From assembly GCA_036268055.1 (NCBI GenBank), contig DATAUW010000011.1:1-64000 (forward strand): DNA of 64,000 nt. Direction: 5' to 3'. A model generated the notes under the pieces. It saw only the letters and a program-made list of their open reading frames with translations. It had not been told where the DNA came from and did not search any database. Position numbers and translations under genes: made by a program. This DNA is from Verrucomicrobiia bacterium. Lineage in GTDB: Bacteria; Verrucomicrobiota; Verrucomicrobiia; Limisphaerales; Pedosphaeraceae. Shown piece after piece: positions 7,566-15,656 of the stretch. Position 1 is the stretch's first letter; every line of letters starts with the position of its first letter.

Positions 7566-8117
7566 ATGCTGGTGGTGGCTCAAAACGAACAACTGCCCGT
7601 GCGGGAAGCCAGGGCCGGCGAGCCGGACGCCTGGAACGCCCTGCTCGCGCGCTACCGCCTGCCCCTCTACACTTATGTTTTTGAATTGGTGCATAATGAG
7701 CAGGCGAGCCTCGACATCGTCCAGGAATCGTTCATCAACGCCGCGCGCCACATCGCCACGCTGCGCGACGACGATAAATTCGGCTCGTGGCTTTTCAATA
7801 TCGCTCACCAAAAATGCGCGCAACTCTGGCGCAAGAAAAATCCGGTGGAAATCGCCATCGAACGGGATGACGAAACTTTGGAAGACGCCGACCTTGGCCC
7901 GATGGAATTGCTCGTCCGGGAAGAACAGGAGCGCGAGTTTATGAAATTGCTGGATCAACTCGCCCCGCCGCATCGCGCGGTGGTGCTGCTGCATTTCGTC
8001 GAGGATTTTTCGCTCGAAGAAATCGCGCGCATCACGGCCACGCCGCTGGGCACGGTCAAATCCCGCCTTTATTATGCGCGCAAGGCATTTAAGAAATTAC
8101 TGGAGGATCAACGATGA
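7566..8117 (+). CDS. ECF-type RNA polymerase sigma factor
   Basis: A 183-residue sigma-70 family protein of the extracytoplasmic-function type. Region 2 covers about residues 15-85 (LYTYVFELVHNEQASLDIVQESF, then FGSWLFNIAHQ for -10 recognition). Region 4 covers about 125-180 with a helix-turn-helix around FSLEEIARITATPLGTVKSR, which contacts the -35 element. Length is typical. The stop overlaps the next gene's ATG as ATGA, so the two are translated together, as is usual for an ECF factor and its membrane regulator. It would direct polymerase to a small stress or envelope regulon; the signal cannot be read from sequence. Confidence 0.92.
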   Translation: MLVVAQNEQLPVREARAGEPDAWNALLARYRLPLYTYVFELVHNEQASLDIVQESFINAARHIATLRDDDKFGSWLFNIAHQKCAQLWRKKNPVEIAIERDDETLEDADLGPMELLVREEQEREFMKLLDQLAPPHRAVVLLHFVEDFSLEEIARITATPLGTVKSRLYYARKAFKKLLEDQR

Positions 8118-8539
8118 AAACTCCCCGCGAAATTCTTTTTGAAAAACATCGCGACGCCGAGGCGAAGCTCAGCCAGCTCGACGCGCAACCTCTCGCCGAG
8201 TACGCCCGCGAATCCTCGCGACAAAAAACTTCTACCCGCGCGCTCGCGCATTCATGGCTGAAGTATTTCTGGAGTGAAGCCGTTTTGCCGTGGCGAAAAA
8301 TCTGGATCGGCATCGCCTCGGCGTGGCTGGTAATCATCGGCATGAGTTTGACAGTAAATTCGCGGCCCGGCGGCGCGGTCGCTGAGCAAGCGAAAGTGGA
8401 CCCGCAGACGCGAACCGTCCTGCTCGAACAACAACGCATGCTGGCGCAGTTGCTTGAGCCCACCGCGCCTCCGGTACGGTTGAAGCCGGCCACACCCGGC
8501 CCGCGCAGTGACGCCCGCCTTCAGGAAGTTTACGTTTAA
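8114..8539 (+). CDS. One-TM protein coupled to the ECF sigma factor, possible anti-sigma factor
   Basis: A 141-residue protein with a charged N-terminal part (1-60), one membrane segment (about 63-82, WIGIASAWLVIIGMSL) and a short Pro-rich periplasmic tail. It overlaps the sigma gene by 4 bp, and position and topology fit a membrane anti-sigma factor. It lacks the HxxxCxxC zinc motif of classic ZAS anti-sigma domains and no other anti-sigma motif was recognised, so the role is inferred from context only. Confidence 0.75.
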   Translation: MKTPREILFEKHRDAEAKLSQLDAQPLAEYARESSRQKTSTRALAHSWLKYFWSEAVLPWRKIWIGIASAWLVIIGMSLTVNSRPGGAVAEQAKVDPQTRTVLLEQQRMLAQLLEPTAPPVRLKPATPGPRSDARLQEVYV

Positions 8540-8569
8540 CTTTGTCTTAACCTAATTCAAGGGTCATTT

Positions 8570-10150
8570 ATGGATACATCCGCCTCCTCGTCCGCCAGTA
8601 ATAATCATCGTCCGTTTCGTTTGTTCAGCTTGCGCACGCTCGGCTGCTTCGTCGTGGGCGTCGTCGCCATCGCGACTCTCGTTGGACTTTTTTTCGTTGA
8701 GGAGGATTGGCGGGGAAAACATGCCTGGGAAAACTACGAGAGCGAAGCCGAAGCGCGCGGGGTGGACTTGAATTTTGCCGACTTCATCCCCGCGCCCGTC
8801 CCCGACGACCAGAATTTCGCGATGACGCCCTTTCTCAAGCCGTTGTTCGATTTCAATCCCAAACCGCTTCAACCCGGCCAAAGTGCCTGGCGGGACACAA
8901 ACGGATACAATCGTATAATGAATTTCGCAACGAATCGGAACTTGAACGGTCCATCGCAGAGTGCCTTGTCCGTGATCGGTTCCGGCCATCTCGCCAACCT
9001 TCCGGCCATCGCCGGCAAAATGGCGAATCTCAAGGATGCACAAACCAATTCGCTGACGTCCAGCGCCGCCGCGCAAATCGTTTTGGATAACCTGGCGCAG
9101 TATCAGCCGGTGTTGGACGAAATCAATGATGCATCCCATCGCCCGTATATCCGTTTCAACATCGGTTACAATGATGAAGATCCCGCGGCTATTCTGTTGC
9201 CGCATCTCGCGGTGATCAAACGCCTGACTATGGTTTACCAGCTACAGGCTTCGGCCAACCTGGCATTGAACCGAACGGATGCCGCGGCGGCAGATGAGAA
9301 GATTATTTTTTATCTGGCAAACGCATTTCCGCATGAACCGTTCATGATTTCAATACTGGTGCGGTGCGCCGAACTTGCCATTGATCGGCAGGTGATATGG
9401 GAAGGGCTGGCGCAAGGAAAATGGTCGGACGCCCAACTGCAGGAGTTTGAAGAACGATATAGAAAATTAGATTTTGCCCGGGACGCCCGCCAATCGTTGG
9501 ATAGCGAACGGGCCGCTTTCGGCGTGCGGCTTTTTGATTATATACGCGCCAACCCAAGTTTTCTGGGTTCCATTAGCGACGATAGTTCCCAGTTGGGCAA
9601 TCTATTCTCATTTGTTCCCAAGGGATGGATATACCTGGAACAAGTGTCTTACAATCGAGGATTTGATAGATATGTATTGCCAGGGTTTGACCCGCGAACC
9701 GGGCAGGCGTTCCCCAAAGAGATCGAAAAAGCGGGCAAACCCGAATCTCAGAACCCCATGGCACACCTGTTACATCATGACATCCTCATCTCCATGCTTC
9801 TGCCAAGCGTCGAGAAATTTTACCCCAAGATTGCGATCGCTGAAACCGGCGTCAATGAAACCATTGCCGCCTGCGCCATCGAACGCTATCGCCTCGCCAA
9901 CGGAAAACTCCCTGACACGCTCGACCAGCTCGTTCCTAAATTCCTCGACCAAGTGCCGATGGATGTCTGCAACGGAAAACCTCTCATTTACCATCCCGGC
10001 GAAGGCCGCAATTTCACTTTGTATTCCGTTGGCTGGAACCAAACGGATGACGGCGGAAAAACCGTTCACAATTCAACTAAAACTGAAAACTCTGCCAGCC
10101 CCATTCCCAGCGAGGGCGATTGGGTCTGGCCCTCTTACGCGGGCGAATAA
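8570..10150 (+). CDS. Membrane-anchored hypothetical protein with pseudopilin-like C-terminal segment
   Basis: A 526-residue protein with one N-terminal TM helix (about residues 26-46) and a large extracytoplasmic part. The last ~90 residues (ERYRLANGKLPDTLDQLVP, then DVCNGKPLIYHPGEG and YSVGWNQTDDGG) resemble the C-terminal segment often found in Planctomycetes/Verrucomicrobia type II pseudopilin-like proteins. There is no prepilin cleavage motif. It follows the sigma/anti-sigma-like pair by 30 bp on the same strand, so it may belong to that operon and be its sensor or target. Function unknown. Confidence 0.8.
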   Translation: MDTSASSSASNNHRPFRLFSLRTLGCFVVGVVAIATLVGLFFVEEDWRGKHAWENYESEAEARGVDLNFADFIPAPVPDDQNFAMTPFLKPLFDFNPKPLQPGQSAWRDTNGYNRIMNFATNRNLNGPSQSALSVIGSGHLANLPAIAGKMANLKDAQTNSLTSSAAAQIVLDNLAQYQPVLDEINDASHRPYIRFNIGYNDEDPAAILLPHLAVIKRLTMVYQLQASANLALNRTDAAAADEKIIFYLANAFPHEPFMISILVRCAELAIDRQVIWEGLAQGKWSDAQLQEFEERYRKLDFARDARQSLDSERAAFGVRLFDYIRANPSFLGSISDDSSQLGNLFSFVPKGWIYLEQVSYNRGFDRYVLPGFDPRTGQAFPKEIEKAGKPESQNPMAHLLHHDILISMLLPSVEKFYPKIAIAETGVNETIAACAIERYRLANGKLPDTLDQLVPKFLDQVPMDVCNGKPLIYHPGEGRNFTLYSVGWNQTDDGGKTVHNSTKTENSASPIPSEGDWVWPSYAGE

Positions 10151-11131: not shown

Positions 11132-14100
11132 ATGATCGAACCCGAAGCCAGCCAACCCATGCCCGACAACCGGAAATGCCCCCAGTGCGGCACGCCGCTG
11201 CCCGCCGGCACGCTCGCCGGTTTGTGTCCCGCCTGCCTGCTTAAACAAGGCGCCGCCAACGACACGGCTGCGCCGGATTCGCCCGCTTTCGTGCCGCCGA
11301 GCATCGAGGAAATCGCCAAACTTTTCCCGCAACTGGACATCCTCAGCCTGCTTGGCAAGGGCGGCATGGGCGCGGTTTATAAGGCGCGCCAGCCCTCGCT
11401 CGACCGTTTGGTCGCGCTCAAAATTTTGCCTTCGCATGACGGTTCTGATCCAGGCTTTGCCGAGCGTTTTACCCGCGAGGCTCGCGCACTGGCCAAGCTG
11501 AGCCATCCGAACATCGTGGGCGTCCATGAATTCGGCGTGGCAGGCAACCTGCATTATTTCATCATGGAATTTGTGGATGGCGTGAACCTCCGGCAGCTTC
11601 AACTCTCCGGCCGCCTCTCGCCGCGGGAAGCGCTCCAGATCGTCCCGCAACTTTGCGATGCGCTTCAATACGCCCACGACCAGGGCGTCGTTCATCGCGA
11701 CATCAAGCCCGAGAATGTCATGCTCGATCGCAAAGGCCGTGTGAAGATCGCGGACTTTGGCATCGCCAAAATGCTCGACCAGGGAACCCAGCACTTGCGC
11801 CTGACGGGCGAAGGCCACGTGATCGGCACGCCGCATTACATGTCGCCCGAGCAGGTGGAACATCCGTTGGAAGTAGATCATCGCGCGGACATCTATTCGC
11901 TCGGCGTTGTGTTTTACGAAATGCTGACGGGTGAATTGCCGCTGGGCCGTTTCTCGCCCCCGTCGCGCAAAGTGCAGATTGATATCCGGCTGGACGACGT
12001 GGTTTTGCGCGCGCTGGAAAAAGAGCCTGACCGCCGTTATCAACACGCCAGCCAAGTTAAAACCGCCGTGGAAAACATCGGCAACTCGCCCGGCGCCACG
12101 CCCCCGCCTTCGGCTGCCGCCGCGAGCGCGCTGTCCGCGGATTTGTTATCGCGGGATTATAATGTGGACATCGGCTATTGCCTGCGGCGCGGATTCAATT
12201 TGGTGAAAGGCGATTTCTGGCCGCTGGTTGGAGTCACGGCCATCATCCTCGCCTTGTTTTCCGTGGTGAATTCCAATCACCTCACCGCCTTCCTGAGCCC
12301 GTTCATTTGGGGTCCGCTGATGGGCGGTTTATATCTTTATTATTTCAAGAAAATCCGGCGCGAACCCGTCACCATCGAGACCGCGTTCTCCGGTTTTTCC
12401 TCGCTGTTCCTGCATTTATTTCTCGGCGGGTTTGTTTCGTTTGCGCTGACTTTCCTGGGCATTATTTGTTTTGTCTTGCCCGGAATTTATTTGGCCGTTT
12501 CGTGGATCTTCGCGTTTCCGCTGATCGCCGACAAGCGGCTGCACTTCTGGGACGCTATGGAACTGAGCCGGAAACTGGTGCGCAACCACTGGTGGAGAAT
12601 TTTCTGCTTCTCGCTGGTGTTGATCGCGCTCAATTTCGCCGGGCTGCTGGCTTTCGGCATCGGGATTTTCCTCACCGTGCCGATCTCGCTCGCCGCGCTG
12701 GCCTATGCGTATGAAGACATTTTCAACGTCAGCAAGTTCGCGCAGGTGCCACCGCCCATTTCCGCCATGCCCGCCGACCTGGGGCCTTCCGGGACGGTCG
12801 TGATGCCACCAGCGGCGCGAATCATCCCTCCGAGCGGCGGCGGCGGATGTCTGAAAGGCCTCGCAATCGGTTGCGGCGGCATTGTGCTACTGGCGGCCAT
12901 CATCGCTTCAACCGTCGCCATTTTTCACTGGCATGATCGCCGTCAATATTTTCACCAGCAAAATGAAGCGGTCACCGAACATTGGTCGCCGCCGCCCGGG
13001 AGCGACCCAATTGATCCGCTCAAGATTCTCGAAGAAGCGCGGAAGCTCAGGGACGCAGGGAAATACGCCGAGGCGCATCAGCGTTACCTTTGGTTTTTTA
13101 ATCACGCGCTCGAATACAATCCCGGAACCTCCGGCGTCCGCTTGTCTTACGCGTTGACGGAATGGTATGAGCTTGGCCGCCGCTATCCCGCCGCGCACTC
13201 GGCGATTGAGCAGATCCGCGACCGCGACCGCATGGATTTTTACGAAGGCCGCGGCTATGCTGCCTTGTTCACGGAATTCGCCGCGCTCAATCATTATTTG
13301 CAGAACGAAGATGAGACGGTGAACGTCTTTGATTCCTTCCGCGAAAATGATCGCGACCTCGCCCAGCAATGCTTTCCGCAGGTCGAGGAGTTGCTCGTCA
13401 AGCGTCACGACTATAAAGAATGCCTGGAATACATTCCCGATCCGGACGCGGCGTTCGACAGCATTGAGCAGACGTGGGACCGCGCAAAACAGATGGAGGA
13501 CAGCCAGGCGGAATTGCAATCCCAGATGCAAAAGCGCACGGACGAAAGCAACGAGAACCTCCGCCGGCAACATCCAGATGCGCCAAGATCGAGATTCGTC
13601 CTGCCGCCGCTTCCCAAAACCGCCGATAATAATTTCATCAACCAGACTCGGCAACTGATAGAAATTCTGGTCGCCACCGGCAGCAGTCAGAAAGCCGAAA
13701 GCATCCGCGGTCGGGCGATTCACGCCGTGGCGCAGGAAAAAATAGACAACCACGAATCCGGCTCGCTGGGCGATCCCCGCCTCGACTCTGCCGTCATTGA
13801 TGCCCAGCGCAAGATTGAGGGCCGCAATTCCATTGAGTCTTCCAGCGACGGCGTGGATTCTTCGCCGCCGGTGGTAGTTCGCACCGAGCCTGCATCAGGC
13901 GAACGCGAGGTCGCACCGGGCCATTTCACCCTTAAAGTCACTTTCAGCAAACCGATGGCGAACAACGCGTGGAGCTGGTGCGATGCGTGGTCGAACTCCA
14001 CTCCGGTCACGGATGGCCAACCCTCCTTCGCCGCGGATCACGAAACCTGCCTCCTTAACGTCACGCTTGAGCCCAACAAGACCTATGCCTATTGGTTGAA

Positions 14101-14416
14101 CGCCGCTGATGGCTTAACCGCGGTTGGAACTGAAGGACAAAAGCTAGCGGAGAATGTTTATAACACGGCCAAGGAAAAATATAATGCGCTTCGTCGAAAC
14201 TACCCCGAACAAAATGTCTATGTGCAGAATGCCCAAAAAGAGCTTGGCGATGCCGAACGAAATCTGGCTGCCGTAACTGAAAAACATTCCCTGGAACAAT
14301 TTCAAAATTTTAAAGACACTGCTGGGCATCCCGCCGTTCCCTATCTGCTGATTTTCCACACAGGCGATTCCGCCAATGCGGATCGTTCTTCCGACAACAA
14401 CAATCAAACCAAATAA
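11132..14416 (+). CDS. Membrane Ser/Thr protein kinase with zinc ribbon, membrane module, TPR-like region and Ig-like domain
   Basis: A 1094-residue kinase. Order: N-terminal zinc ribbon (Cys16, Cys19, Cys32, Cys35); PknB-type kinase domain about 68-325 with GKGGMGAVY, Lys97, HRD (Asp190 in HRDIKPENVML), DFG (Asp208) and MSPEQ; a four-helix membrane module about 362-530; another TM helix about 571-598; an extracytoplasmic helical TPR-like region about 630-860; and a C-terminal SbsA/Big_5-like Ig domain from about 906. All catalytic residues are present, so it should phosphorylate proteins in response to an external signal. The Ig-like domain is interrupted by an extra ~55-residue helical segment (about 996-1050). 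The next gene encodes the same Ig-like domain without that insert, and an ECF sigma gene follows. Confidence 0.93.
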   Translation: MIEPEASQPMPDNRKCPQCGTPLPAGTLAGLCPACLLKQGAANDTAAPDSPAFVPPSIEEIAKLFPQLDILSLLGKGGMGAVYKARQPSLDRLVALKILPSHDGSDPGFAERFTREARALAKLSHPNIVGVHEFGVAGNLHYFIMEFVDGVNLRQLQLSGRLSPREALQIVPQLCDALQYAHDQGVVHRDIKPENVMLDRKGRVKIADFGIAKMLDQGTQHLRLTGEGHVIGTPHYMSPEQVEHPLEVDHRADIYSLGVVFYEMLTGELPLGRFSPPSRKVQIDIRLDDVVLRALEKEPDRRYQHASQVKTAVENIGNSPGATPPPSAAAASALSADLLSRDYNVDIGYCLRRGFNLVKGDFWPLVGVTAIILALFSVVNSNHLTAFLSPFIWGPLMGGLYLYYFKKIRREPVTIETAFSGFSSLFLHLFLGGFVSFALTFLGIICFVLPGIYLAVSWIFAFPLIADKRLHFWDAMELSRKLVRNHWWRIFCFSLVLIALNFAGLLAFGIGIFLTVPISLAALAYAYEDIFNVSKFAQVPPPISAMPADLGPSGTVVMPPAARIIPPSGGGGCLKGLAIGCGGIVLLAAIIASTVAIFHWHDRRQYFHQQNEAVTEHWSPPPGSDPIDPLKILEEARKLRDAGKYAEAHQRYLWFFNHALEYNPGTSGVRLSYALTEWYELGRRYPAAHSAIEQIRDRDRMDFYEGRGYAALFTEFAALNHYLQNEDETVNVFDSFRENDRDLAQQCFPQVEELLVKRHDYKECLEYIPDPDAAFDSIEQTWDRAKQMEDSQAELQSQMQKRTDESNENLRRQHPDAPRSRFVLPPLPKTADNNFINQTRQLIEILVATGSSQKAESIRGRAIHAVAQEKIDNHESGSLGDPRLDSAVIDAQRKIEGRNSIESSSDGVDSSPPVVVRTEPASGEREVAPGHFTLKVTFSKPMANNAWSWCDAWSNSTPVTDGQPSFAADHETCLLNVTLEPNKTYAYWLNAADGLTAVGTEGQKLAENVYNTAKEKYNALRRNYPEQNVYVQNAQKELGDAERNLAAVTEKHSLEQFQNFKDTAGHPAVPYLLIFHTGDSANADRSSDNNNQTK

Positions 14417-14423
14417 TATTGTT

Positions 14424-14837
14424 ATGAGAGCCAAACCCGCAGTCGCGTTACTGCTCGCCGGCGTTATTCTTCCCATCTCATGCACCTGCGGATCGTCGCA
14501 GGACATTGATTCCATGCCGCCGGTCGTCATCAAAACCATCCCGGAATCCGGGGACAAAACCGTCGCCGCGGGCACCACCGAAATCAAAGTCACCTTCAGC
14601 AAGGAAATGGCGGACGGTTCCTGGAGCTGGTCGGCCGGCTGGGAAAATTCCACGCCCGAAGTCGTCGGCAAACCCAAATACGATTCCGAACACAAGACCT
14701 GCACCTTGCGCGTGAAGCTCGAACCGAACAAGACTTACGCGTATTGGTTGAACAGCAATAATTTTCATAATTTCAAAGATCATCTGGGGCATCCGTCCGT
14801 GCCGTATTTGCTCGTGTTCCACACGCGCGATAGATAA
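14424..14837 (+). CDS. Putative lipoprotein with Ig-like domain copied in the kinase C-terminus
   Basis: A 137-residue protein from the ATG at 14424, just after the kinase stop. The signal sequence ends LLLAGVILPISC, a lipobox-like site. The mature part is one Big_5/SbsA-type Ig-like domain. It matches the kinase's C-terminal domain over most of its length: PPVV-(I/V)-(K/R)T-(I/E)P, KVTFSK-(E/P)-M, WSW, LEPNKTYAYWLN, NFKD and GHP-(S/A)-VPYLL-(V/I)-FHT. It lacks the helical insert found in the kinase. A tandem duplication or a ligand/receptor-type pair is likely. Probably periplasmic and lipid-anchored. Confidence 0.8.
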   Translation: MRAKPAVALLLAGVILPISCTCGSSQDIDSMPPVVIKTIPESGDKTVAAGTTEIKVTFSKEMADGSWSWSAGWENSTPEVVGKPKYDSEHKTCTLRVKLEPNKTYAYWLNSNNFHNFKDHLGHPSVPYLLVFHTRDR

Positions 14838-14853
14838 AAAATATTCACCACCT

Positions 14854-14877
14854 ATAGCGGCGGTTTTTAGCCGCCGA
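14854..14877. repeat. Short GC hairpin (CGGCGG/CCGCCG)
   Basis: CGGCGG at 14858-14863 pairs with CCGCCG at 14871-14876 around TTTTTAG. It lies between the lipoprotein and sigma-factor genes. It has no downstream U-tract, so it is more likely a short dispersed palindrome than an intrinsic terminator. Confidence 0.45.
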
Positions 14878-14909
14878 ACGCTAACCCAACGCCATTAACT
14901 AAATCTCGC

Positions 14910-15656
14910 TTGACCTCGGAACATACAACGCCCCGTGTCCCCACGCGCGCCGATACCTTCGCGACCACGCATTGGACGGTCGTCCTCGCGGCGGGACAGG
15001 GCCGCACGGTGCAGGCCGATACCGCGCTCGAGGAGCTTTGCCACACGTATTGGTATCCACTCTATGCCTACGTGCGGCGGCGCGGCCACACCCACGAGGA
15101 TGCCGAGGATTTGACGCAGGGTTTTTTCGCGCGCTTTCTCGAGCGCAATTATCTCGAGGGTCTCACCAGCGAGAAGGGAAAATTCCGCGCGTTCCTGCTC
15201 GCCTCGCTCAAACATTTCATGGCGAACGAATGGAACCGCGCGCACGCGCAAAAACGCGGCGGTGAAACCCCCGCGCTCTCGCTCGATTGGCAAAGTGCCG
15301 ACAGCCGTTACCAAATCAATGTGCCGGACGATTTGAGCCCGGATAAAATTTACGATCGCGAATGGGCGCTGGCCTTGCTCGAACGCGTCATCACCCGCTT
15401 GCGCGATGAATGCAACGCGAGCGACCAGGCGCGGCTCTTTGATTCGCTCAAGCCATTTCTCACGATGGACAAAGCCGCCGTGCCTTACGCGCAAGCCGCC
15501 GCGGAGTTGAACCTCGCCGAAGGCGCGGTGCGCGTGGCGGTGCATCGCCTCCGCAAACGCTATCGCGGGCTTTTACGCGATGAGATCACGCAAACGCTCG
15601 CCGACCCGGCGCAGGTGGAAGAAGAAATGCGCACGCTGCTCGGAGCGTTCGGATAA
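14910..15656 (+). CDS. ECF-type sigma factor (Planctomycetes/Verrucomicrobia style)
   Basis: A 248-residue sigma factor with a TTG start at 14910; no ATG lies nearby in frame. Region 2 is about residues 40-110 (TYWYPLYAYVRRRGHTHEDA, then AEDLTQGFFARFLER and FRAFLLASLKHF). Region 4 is about 180-225, with its helix-turn-helix near AQAAAELNLAEGAVRVAVHR. The extended linker between the regions is longer than in classic ECF factors, as in planctomycete and verrucomicrobial families. ECF factors whose activity depends on a neighbouring Ser/Thr kinase are known, and this one follows a kinase operon, so control by phosphorylation rather than by an anti-sigma factor is a reasonable inference. Confidence 0.88.
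   Translation: MTSEHTTPRVPTRADTFATTHWTVVLAAGQGRTVQADTALEELCHTYWYPLYAYVRRRGHTHEDAEDLTQGFFARFLERNYLEGLTSEKGKFRAFLLASLKHFMANEWNRAHAQKRGGETPALSLDWQSADSRYQINVPDDLSPDKIYDREWALALLERVITRLRDECNASDQARLFDSLKPFLTMDKAAVPYAQAAAELNLAEGAVRVAVHRLRKRYRGLLRDEITQTLADPAQVEEEMRTLLGAFG

Follow-up and report, generated by a model that had tools for sequence, protein, structure and literature searches.

Why should a bacterial membrane kinase end in a copy of the exported protein that is encoded directly behind it, and why should a sigma factor follow next? The question is raised by three consecutive + strand genes of contig DATAUW010000011.1, from a Verrucomicrobiia bacterium whose genome assembly comprises 5.1 Mb in 41 contigs; its first 64,000 nucleotides are referred to as the window. 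The three genes encode, in this order, a zinc-ribbon Ser/Thr kinase with a C-terminal immunoglobulin-like (Ig) domain, a short exported protein made up of one such domain (the partner) and an extracytoplasmic function (ECF)-type sigma factor (Table 1). The ATG of the partner at 14424 lies 7 bases past the kinase stop codon, and the sigma gene begins another 72 bases on. With a probability of roughly 0.5 we read the locus as a membrane signalling unit, in which a tethered copy of the exported protein would provide the kinase input and the ECF sigma factor the output. The kinase and the exported Ig protein are very probably coupled in function, and the sigma factor is probably the output of the kinase through a putative phosphotransfer.

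The likeness of the two Ig copies is the starting point of this reading. The exported Ig aligned with the kinase tail at 56% identity over 89 residues (E 3e-31) and at 68% over the last 25 residues, and the kinase tail was its sole non-self match in the window genome (E ≤ 10); judged from these alignments, the similarity is far above chance. Pfam and NCBIfam assigned a kinase domain as well as sigma regions 2 and 4 to the window proteins, and glycine loop, HRD and DFG are all intact in the kinase. The NCBIfam model PknB_PASTA scored 288.8 bits against a cutoff of 450 and matched the kinase part only. The kinase Ig reached 22.2 bits for Big_5 (residues 909-989), just under the Pfam cutoff of 23.6, the domain here being divided by a helical insert. 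This insert of 63 amino acids (aa) was missing from the exported copy and from 11 of 11 other kinase-borne Ig domains of the alignment, while the profile match to Ig ran unbroken in the 22 other Ig kinases; seen in no other kinase-borne Ig, it is therefore a private feature of the window gene. AlphaFold2 rendered it as two helices, at a mean predicted local distance difference test value (pLDDT) of 79 and a predicted template modelling score (pTM) of 0.50 for the kinase stretch modelled. Evidently, the sequence-only reading was right about the row of zinc-ribbon kinase with Ig tail, Ig copy and ECF sigma factor and about a helical insert in the kinase version alone; its description of the partner as a lipoprotein was not borne out.

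The partner passes the Pfam cutoff for Big_5 and was modelled by AlphaFold2 as a beta sandwich (scores in Table 1). Comparison of this model with known structures gave as nearest matches CopC (6nfq; Z 11.4, root-mean-square deviation 2.0 over 93 residues) and SbsC (Z 9.6, root-mean-square deviation 2.7 over 93 residues), and a sequence search of the PDB returned no relative at E ≤ 1. CopC uses His for copper. Across 54 Ig sequences, none of the columns with full or nearly full conservation held a histidine; the conserved positions include Trp, Tyr, Asn and Asp. The CopC fold is thus shared without a conserved His, copper binding is therefore not implied, and a CopC-like copper sensor was rejected as a candidate although the fold fits. 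The window-type Ig thereby resembles Big_5/SbsC Ig domains and CopC by its Pfam match and its structural matches, and it differs from CopC in lacking an invariant or nearly invariant His such as a copper site requires. As for the mode of export, the window sequence ...ILPISC... (PISC) fails the lipobox, judged here by a simple pattern rather than by a signal-peptide predictor, so that the window protein is unlikely to be a lipoprotein. The same pattern matched 5 of 77 non-kinase Ig frames when the 60 residues before the Ig were considered and 3 of 77 with 40 residues; of the five, L144 alone looks convincing as a lipoprotein.

How widely is the set kept? An Ig match was found in 38 of the 293 genomes of an order sample (E ≤ 0.001), and a 49-row profile (E ≤ 1e-5) detected the domain in 17 of 286 genomes of a class sample and in 17 of 288 of a phylum sample, the latter two samples overlapping. 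A scan of named genomes yielded 53 Ig loci, namely 29 from Verrucomicrobia, 16 from Planctomycetota, 5 from unplaced bacteria and one each from Lentisphaeria, Desulfomonile and a proteobacterium, counted by hand from taxon labels that mostly belong to metagenome bins and may be wrong. Pooled with earlier loci and the window, 86 loci were obtained after removal of duplicates, and 23 Ig-tailed kinases were present among them. For 22 of the 23, a second Ig gene followed downstream on the same strand with at most 1,311 bases from Ig to Ig; in the exception (L103) the Ig kinase lies 22 bases from the contig end. For 18 of the 23 kinases, a sigma gene lay no more than 5 kb away on the same strand. 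The five Ig kinases without one comprise three at the very contig end, the one on the short contig L103 and that of L140, which is flanked and gave no sigma hit. Two Ig kinases are encoded in L095, and both are accompanied by a partner and a sigma gene of their own. The three genes consequently form a recurrent set, which supports this part of the sequence-only interpretation.

For comparison, kinases were taken from a sigma sample of the same order, which consisted of 60 stretches drawn from 124 sigma matches, mostly high-scoring, with the stretches fetched for Ig left out. When both sets were treated by one six-frame method, 22 of 23 Ig kinases had a non-kinase neighbour similar to their outer region, compared with 1 of 49 sigma-sample kinases. 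A rule by which every such kinase has an adjacent outer-domain twin was hence rejected, with 1 of 48 for picked open reading frames and 1 of 49 for six frames; the adjacent twin is special to the Ig kinases and not general.

What does the sigma factor contribute? In the sigma sample, 55 of 64 sigma hits had a same-strand kinase match no more than 3.5 kb away, the sigma gene standing first in 48 of the linked pairs and last in 7, as in the window, and in the window genome all three sigma hits adjoin a kinase. The Ig domain occurred in none of the 60 stretches (six frames), from which those fetched for Ig had been left out. Sigma-kinase pairing is thus a general theme in the order and a kind already published: PMC8999054 lists pairing with Hanks-type kinases for ECF groups 43, 59, 61, 62, 217 and 283, and PMC13147305 shows direct phosphorylation of EcfK by PknS and reports that of EcfP by PknT. 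That the kinase acts through the sigma factor is plausible, given how general such pairs are within the order and given the phosphorylated ECF factors known from elsewhere.

The window system resembles ECF43 (EcfP-PknT, EcfK-PknS) in having an ECF sigma gene beside a transmembrane Ser/Thr kinase, and variable outer domains are reported for ECF43 kinases in PMC13147305. It differs from ECF43 in the exported twin of the kinase tail, which is co-encoded, and in sigma region 2.2, where the window factor has DAED. ECF43 membership was rejected, the acidic DxxD of region 2.2 being kept instead of lost with Thr in place; DAED is retained in the sigma factor, and the ECF43 mechanism therefore does not apply. 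In an alignment of 97 sequences, the frequencies in this region were 0.76 for D77 (E 0.13), 0.95 for A78, 0.51 for E79 (Q 0.43) and 0.98 for D80. These residues would fit a sigma factor that is not phosphorylated by the kinase at all, merely sharing its transcript or regulon while the kinase acts on other proteins, since a kept D77 and D80 do not need the added charge, unlike in ECF43. Such an arrangement, compatible with any reading of the Ig pair, is doubtful in view of the 55 of 64 linkage, which holds in either gene order, and of the very conserved Thr residues (T33 0.99, T82 0.84 and T242 0.98 in alignment numbering).

The same Ig domain was also encountered on other transducers. L061 combines M56/BlaR1 with Big_5 by Pfam, and M56/BlaR1-type frames with C-terminal tandem Ig were found in L061, L064, L065, L066, L067, L069 and L070, with three copies in L065 and two in the others; L088 and L089 hold M56-type frames with a single Ig. 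Except for L061 the peptidase part of these frames was judged by eye. Beside the M56-type loci, 6 of 6 tested genes were BlaI-type repressors (E ≤ 1e-32), and the seventh locus, L066, showed no BlaI-type gene in the stretch examined. In L087 (6075-8514) a PadR gene precedes a HAAS membrane protein with Ig, followed by an exported protein with Ig and S41, which is a repetition of the transducer-plus-exported-Ig layout with different parts. L142 (9023-10324) and L143 (8885-10315), both planctomycete records and the latter from Aquisphaera insulae, carry ECF sigma, a hydrophobic segment and Ig in one frame. Pfam recognised HAAS in the L087 membrane protein, S41 in the product of the following gene and sigma-70 regions in L142 and L143. 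The Ig of L143 scored above the Big_5 cutoff, which the Ig domains of L142 (20.4 bits) and the S41 protein (22.7 bits) narrowly missed, and the Ig of the L087 HAAS protein was detected by our own profile only. Tentatively, one Ig may serve as common extracytoplasmic input for four unrelated transducer classes, namely kinase-ECF, BlaR1-type peptidase-BlaI, HAAS-PadR and membrane-tethered ECF, with a co-encoded exported twin in the kinase class; a receptor-plus-soluble-homologue logic would then have been assembled repeatedly by domain capture.

Unfused loci were found as well. In L125 an ECF sigma gene, a kinase without Ig and an exported Ig gene stand in succession, an arrangement that L126 shares as judged by similarity. 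L205 and L206 each have an exported Ig gene with a sigma gene directly behind it; their zinc-ribbon kinase, which has no Ig, is encoded 7-8 kb upstream of the Ig gene. Exported Ig genes therefore also occur in ECF-kinase loci without a fused copy. As a separate observation, L107 (2581-5246) represents the module minus its kinase: one frame there combines a zinc-ribbon motif with hydrophobic segments and the Ig yet gave no kinase hit, with a sigma gene upstream and an exported Ig gene downstream.

Did the fusion of Ig and kinase happen once? A tree was calculated from 100 Ig domains over 108 columns, leaving out Ig matches weaker than E 1e-25; the Ig copies of L101, L102, L105 and L107, which belong to truncated, split or kinase-less frames outside the 23, were labelled kinase-side by hand in the tree and in the identity, distance and position 11 comparisons. 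The kinase copies fell into at least two groups among the exported copies, with that of L140 apart and grouped with its own neighbour, and a single grouping of all 27 kinase-side copies was rejected in the approximately unbiased (AU) test (p 0.0015; p 0.0041 without L140). The fusion seems from this tree to have arisen more than once, with many forks open and with gene conversion between neighbours as a process that could partly mimic multiple origins. Kinase and partner copies have remained distinct from each other. Mean Ig identity was 0.586 within loci and, between loci, 0.568 for kinase-kinase, 0.607 for partner-partner and 0.540 for kinase-partner comparisons; partners were as low as 43% identical to each other.

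The exported Ig proteins often carry extension modules, and 6 of 9 such modules were also found among the 98 kinase frames searched in the neighbourhoods in hand (HEAT-like, S41-like, SecD-like, the YLQQQ module, NTF2-like and DUF4932), with the remaining three absent from these 98 frames. Some of the names were coined by us, and Pfam backs HEAT_2, Peptidase_S41 and DUF4932. In L062 (1654-9964), DUF4932 is common to a kinase and the next, long secreted protein, which ends in a distant Ig copy.

How, then, might the window locus work? The exported protein would encounter some target on the cell surface or in the periplasm. The tethered Ig of the kinase would sense either that target or how much free partner competes for it. 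The activity of the kinase would change as a result, and the kinase would switch on the adjoining sigma factor. Sensing of a shared target instead of direct Ig-Ig binding has, by analogy, about an even chance; it is favoured because in the best-known parallel, that of RsgI6, the tethered copy binds the substrate of the exported copy. The GH10 module of RsgI6 is 57% identical to the exported xylanase Xyn10D (PMC4711584). The clostridial RsgI/SigI system is thus similar in that the outer domain of a transducer is homologous to a domain of an exported protein, provided that the window tail lies outside. It differs in that RsgI is an anti-sigma factor for sigma-I, the place of which is taken in the window by a kinase and an ECF factor, and no match to the N-terminal domain of RsgI was obtained for the window proteins with Pfam or NCBIfam. 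The sensor domain of BlaR1 resembles the exported beta-lactamase and follows the same logic of a tethered copy. In relatives, window-type Ig domains tail the M56/BlaR1-type peptidases beside BlaI-type repressors; these relatives mostly carry Ig in tandem in one chain, as opposed to the kinase-ECF locus of the window. The sequence-only reading knew of no described system with this set of genes. The kinase-ECF half of the set is of a published kind (PMC8999054, PMC13147305); a literature search among open-licence papers recognised none on the set of kinase, exported Ig and ECF factor.

The interpretation as a signalling unit draws on the partner kept next door, which is rare among the sigma-sample kinases, on the multiple origins and on the adjacency of the only two Ig copies of the window genome. 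It draws further on the six modules found in both exported Ig proteins and kinase frames, on the other transducers with this Ig, on the exported Ig genes of unfused ECF-kinase loci, on the sigma-kinase linkage and on the RsgI6 parallel. From its likeness to exported proteins we infer that the kinase tail would lie outside the inner membrane. In 16 of 23 Ig kinases the membrane segments that a hydropathy scan placed behind the kinase domain were odd in number, which an outside tail requires, and by eye the window kinase has seven segments, which would place the tail outside. Several observations weigh on the other side. The hydropathy scan counted four segments, an even number, after the window kinase domain. 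Of 68 loci of the tight Ig family, 32 had no same-strand kinase or sigma hit within 6 kb and 36 had one, some of the flanks being short. The correlation of kinase and partner distances (0.68; Mantel 0 of 2000) ignores shared genome ancestry, tandem duplication plus fusion alone would leave the copies side by side, and the sigma factor retains its acidic motif, so that no added charge by phosphorylation is needed. When the neighbours of 32 Ig loci, mostly lone exported Ig genes, were clustered, no cluster apart from the Ig itself spanned more than four loci, and some were reverse-strand artefacts. The possibility of mostly unrelated neighbours, raised along with the original reading, met with a mixed answer: in every case that could be judged, the kinase Ig is accompanied by its partner, but the exported Ig is also found alone.

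Could the two Ig copies bind each other instead? The exported Ig would then bind to that of the kinase, be it as a soluble ligand, a decoy or a dimer partner, and would itself be the signal or a brake. Two Ig copies per system indeed recur, in trans in the kinase loci and in tandem in the seven M56-type frames, and kinase and partner copies differ consistently. At position 11 of the main group, 13 of 17 kinase copies have Glu, whereas 14 of 16 partners have Lys, a reversal of charge that would favour unlike pairs. We consider direct pairing unlikely, as this reversal is weak in the second group and missing from the window pair (Arg and Lys), and the M56-type frames of L088 and L089 have a single Ig. 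Finally, it is very unlikely that the pair is a mere by-product, in which a tandem duplication of the exported gene was followed by fusion of the first copy to the kinase, the second being left without a joint role: such a route would make adjacency automatic and would agree with the frequency of the Ig as a lone exported protein, yet it is already weakened by more than one origin, by retention of the partner in 22 of 22 cases that could be assessed despite partner identities down to 43%, and by the exported Ig genes of ECF-kinase loci without a fused copy.

For most Ser/Thr kinases linked to ECF factors no signal is known to us; here the locus itself offers a candidate in the form of an exported domain of about 110 residues and its tethered copy. 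Many genomes encode this small domain, and its structure is predicted well, which turns the question of what the kinase senses into one for binding assays on two short proteins. Furthermore, the repeated appearance of the Ig on transducers suggests how kinases gain new sensors.

Table 1 Features of the kinase, partner and sigma factor genes in the window, with the evidence for each.
Feature	Coordinates	Strand	Evidence
Membrane-bound Ser/Thr kinase with zinc ribbon, helical region and C-terminal Ig, 1094 aa	11132..14416	+	HRD, DFG and glycine-loop motifs present
N-terminal zinc-ribbon motif CPxC...CPxC	11177..11236	+	Motif pattern; Pfam DZR weak, E 0.091
Protein kinase domain, residues 71-278	11342..11965	+	Pfam Pkinase E 1.7e-50
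Multi-pass membrane part like GPDPase_memb, residues 440-516	12449..12679	+	Pfam E 1.5e-7
Last predicted transmembrane segment ahead of the tail, residues 579-597 (frame residues 594-612)	12866..12922	+	Hydropathy scan
Helical region (TPR-like by eye) from membrane to Ig	13016..13837	+	AlphaFold2 model, helices 29-302 of modelled stretch
Kinase Ig (Big_5-type), first part	13841..14104	+	Sequence match, profile, AlphaFold2 model
Helical insert in kinase Ig, 63 aa, private to the window gene	14105..14293	+	Alignment; model helices 397-451
Kinase Ig, last part	14294..14368	+	Sequence match, profile
Exported single-Ig protein (partner), 137 aa	14424..14837	+	Pfam Big_5 37.2 bits (cutoff 23.6); AlphaFold2 pLDDT 88.6, pTM 0.81
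Short hairpin between partner and sigma gene, without T run	14858..14876	+	RNA fold of 14838-14909, -13.3 kcal/mol
ECF-type sigma factor, TTG start, 248 aa	14910..15656	+	Pfam Sigma70_r2 E 1.4e-5, 25.2 bits (cutoff 24)

As outlined in Table 1, the partner is taken to start at the ATG at 14424, which is likelier than a start at 14376, from where an alternative open reading frame of 153 aa overlaps the kinase. The hairpin between partner and sigma gene is strong and may adjust sigma expression. Upstream of the kinase, three genes at 7566-10150 form a block that encodes an ECF sigma factor (183 aa), a protein of 141 aa in which there is a single hydrophobic segment, and a protein of 526 aa. This block recurs by the kinase-Ig module of L101 (10047-13264; E 1e-54, 2e-11 and 2e-77) and is possibly a second sigma unit linked to the kinase-Ig module.

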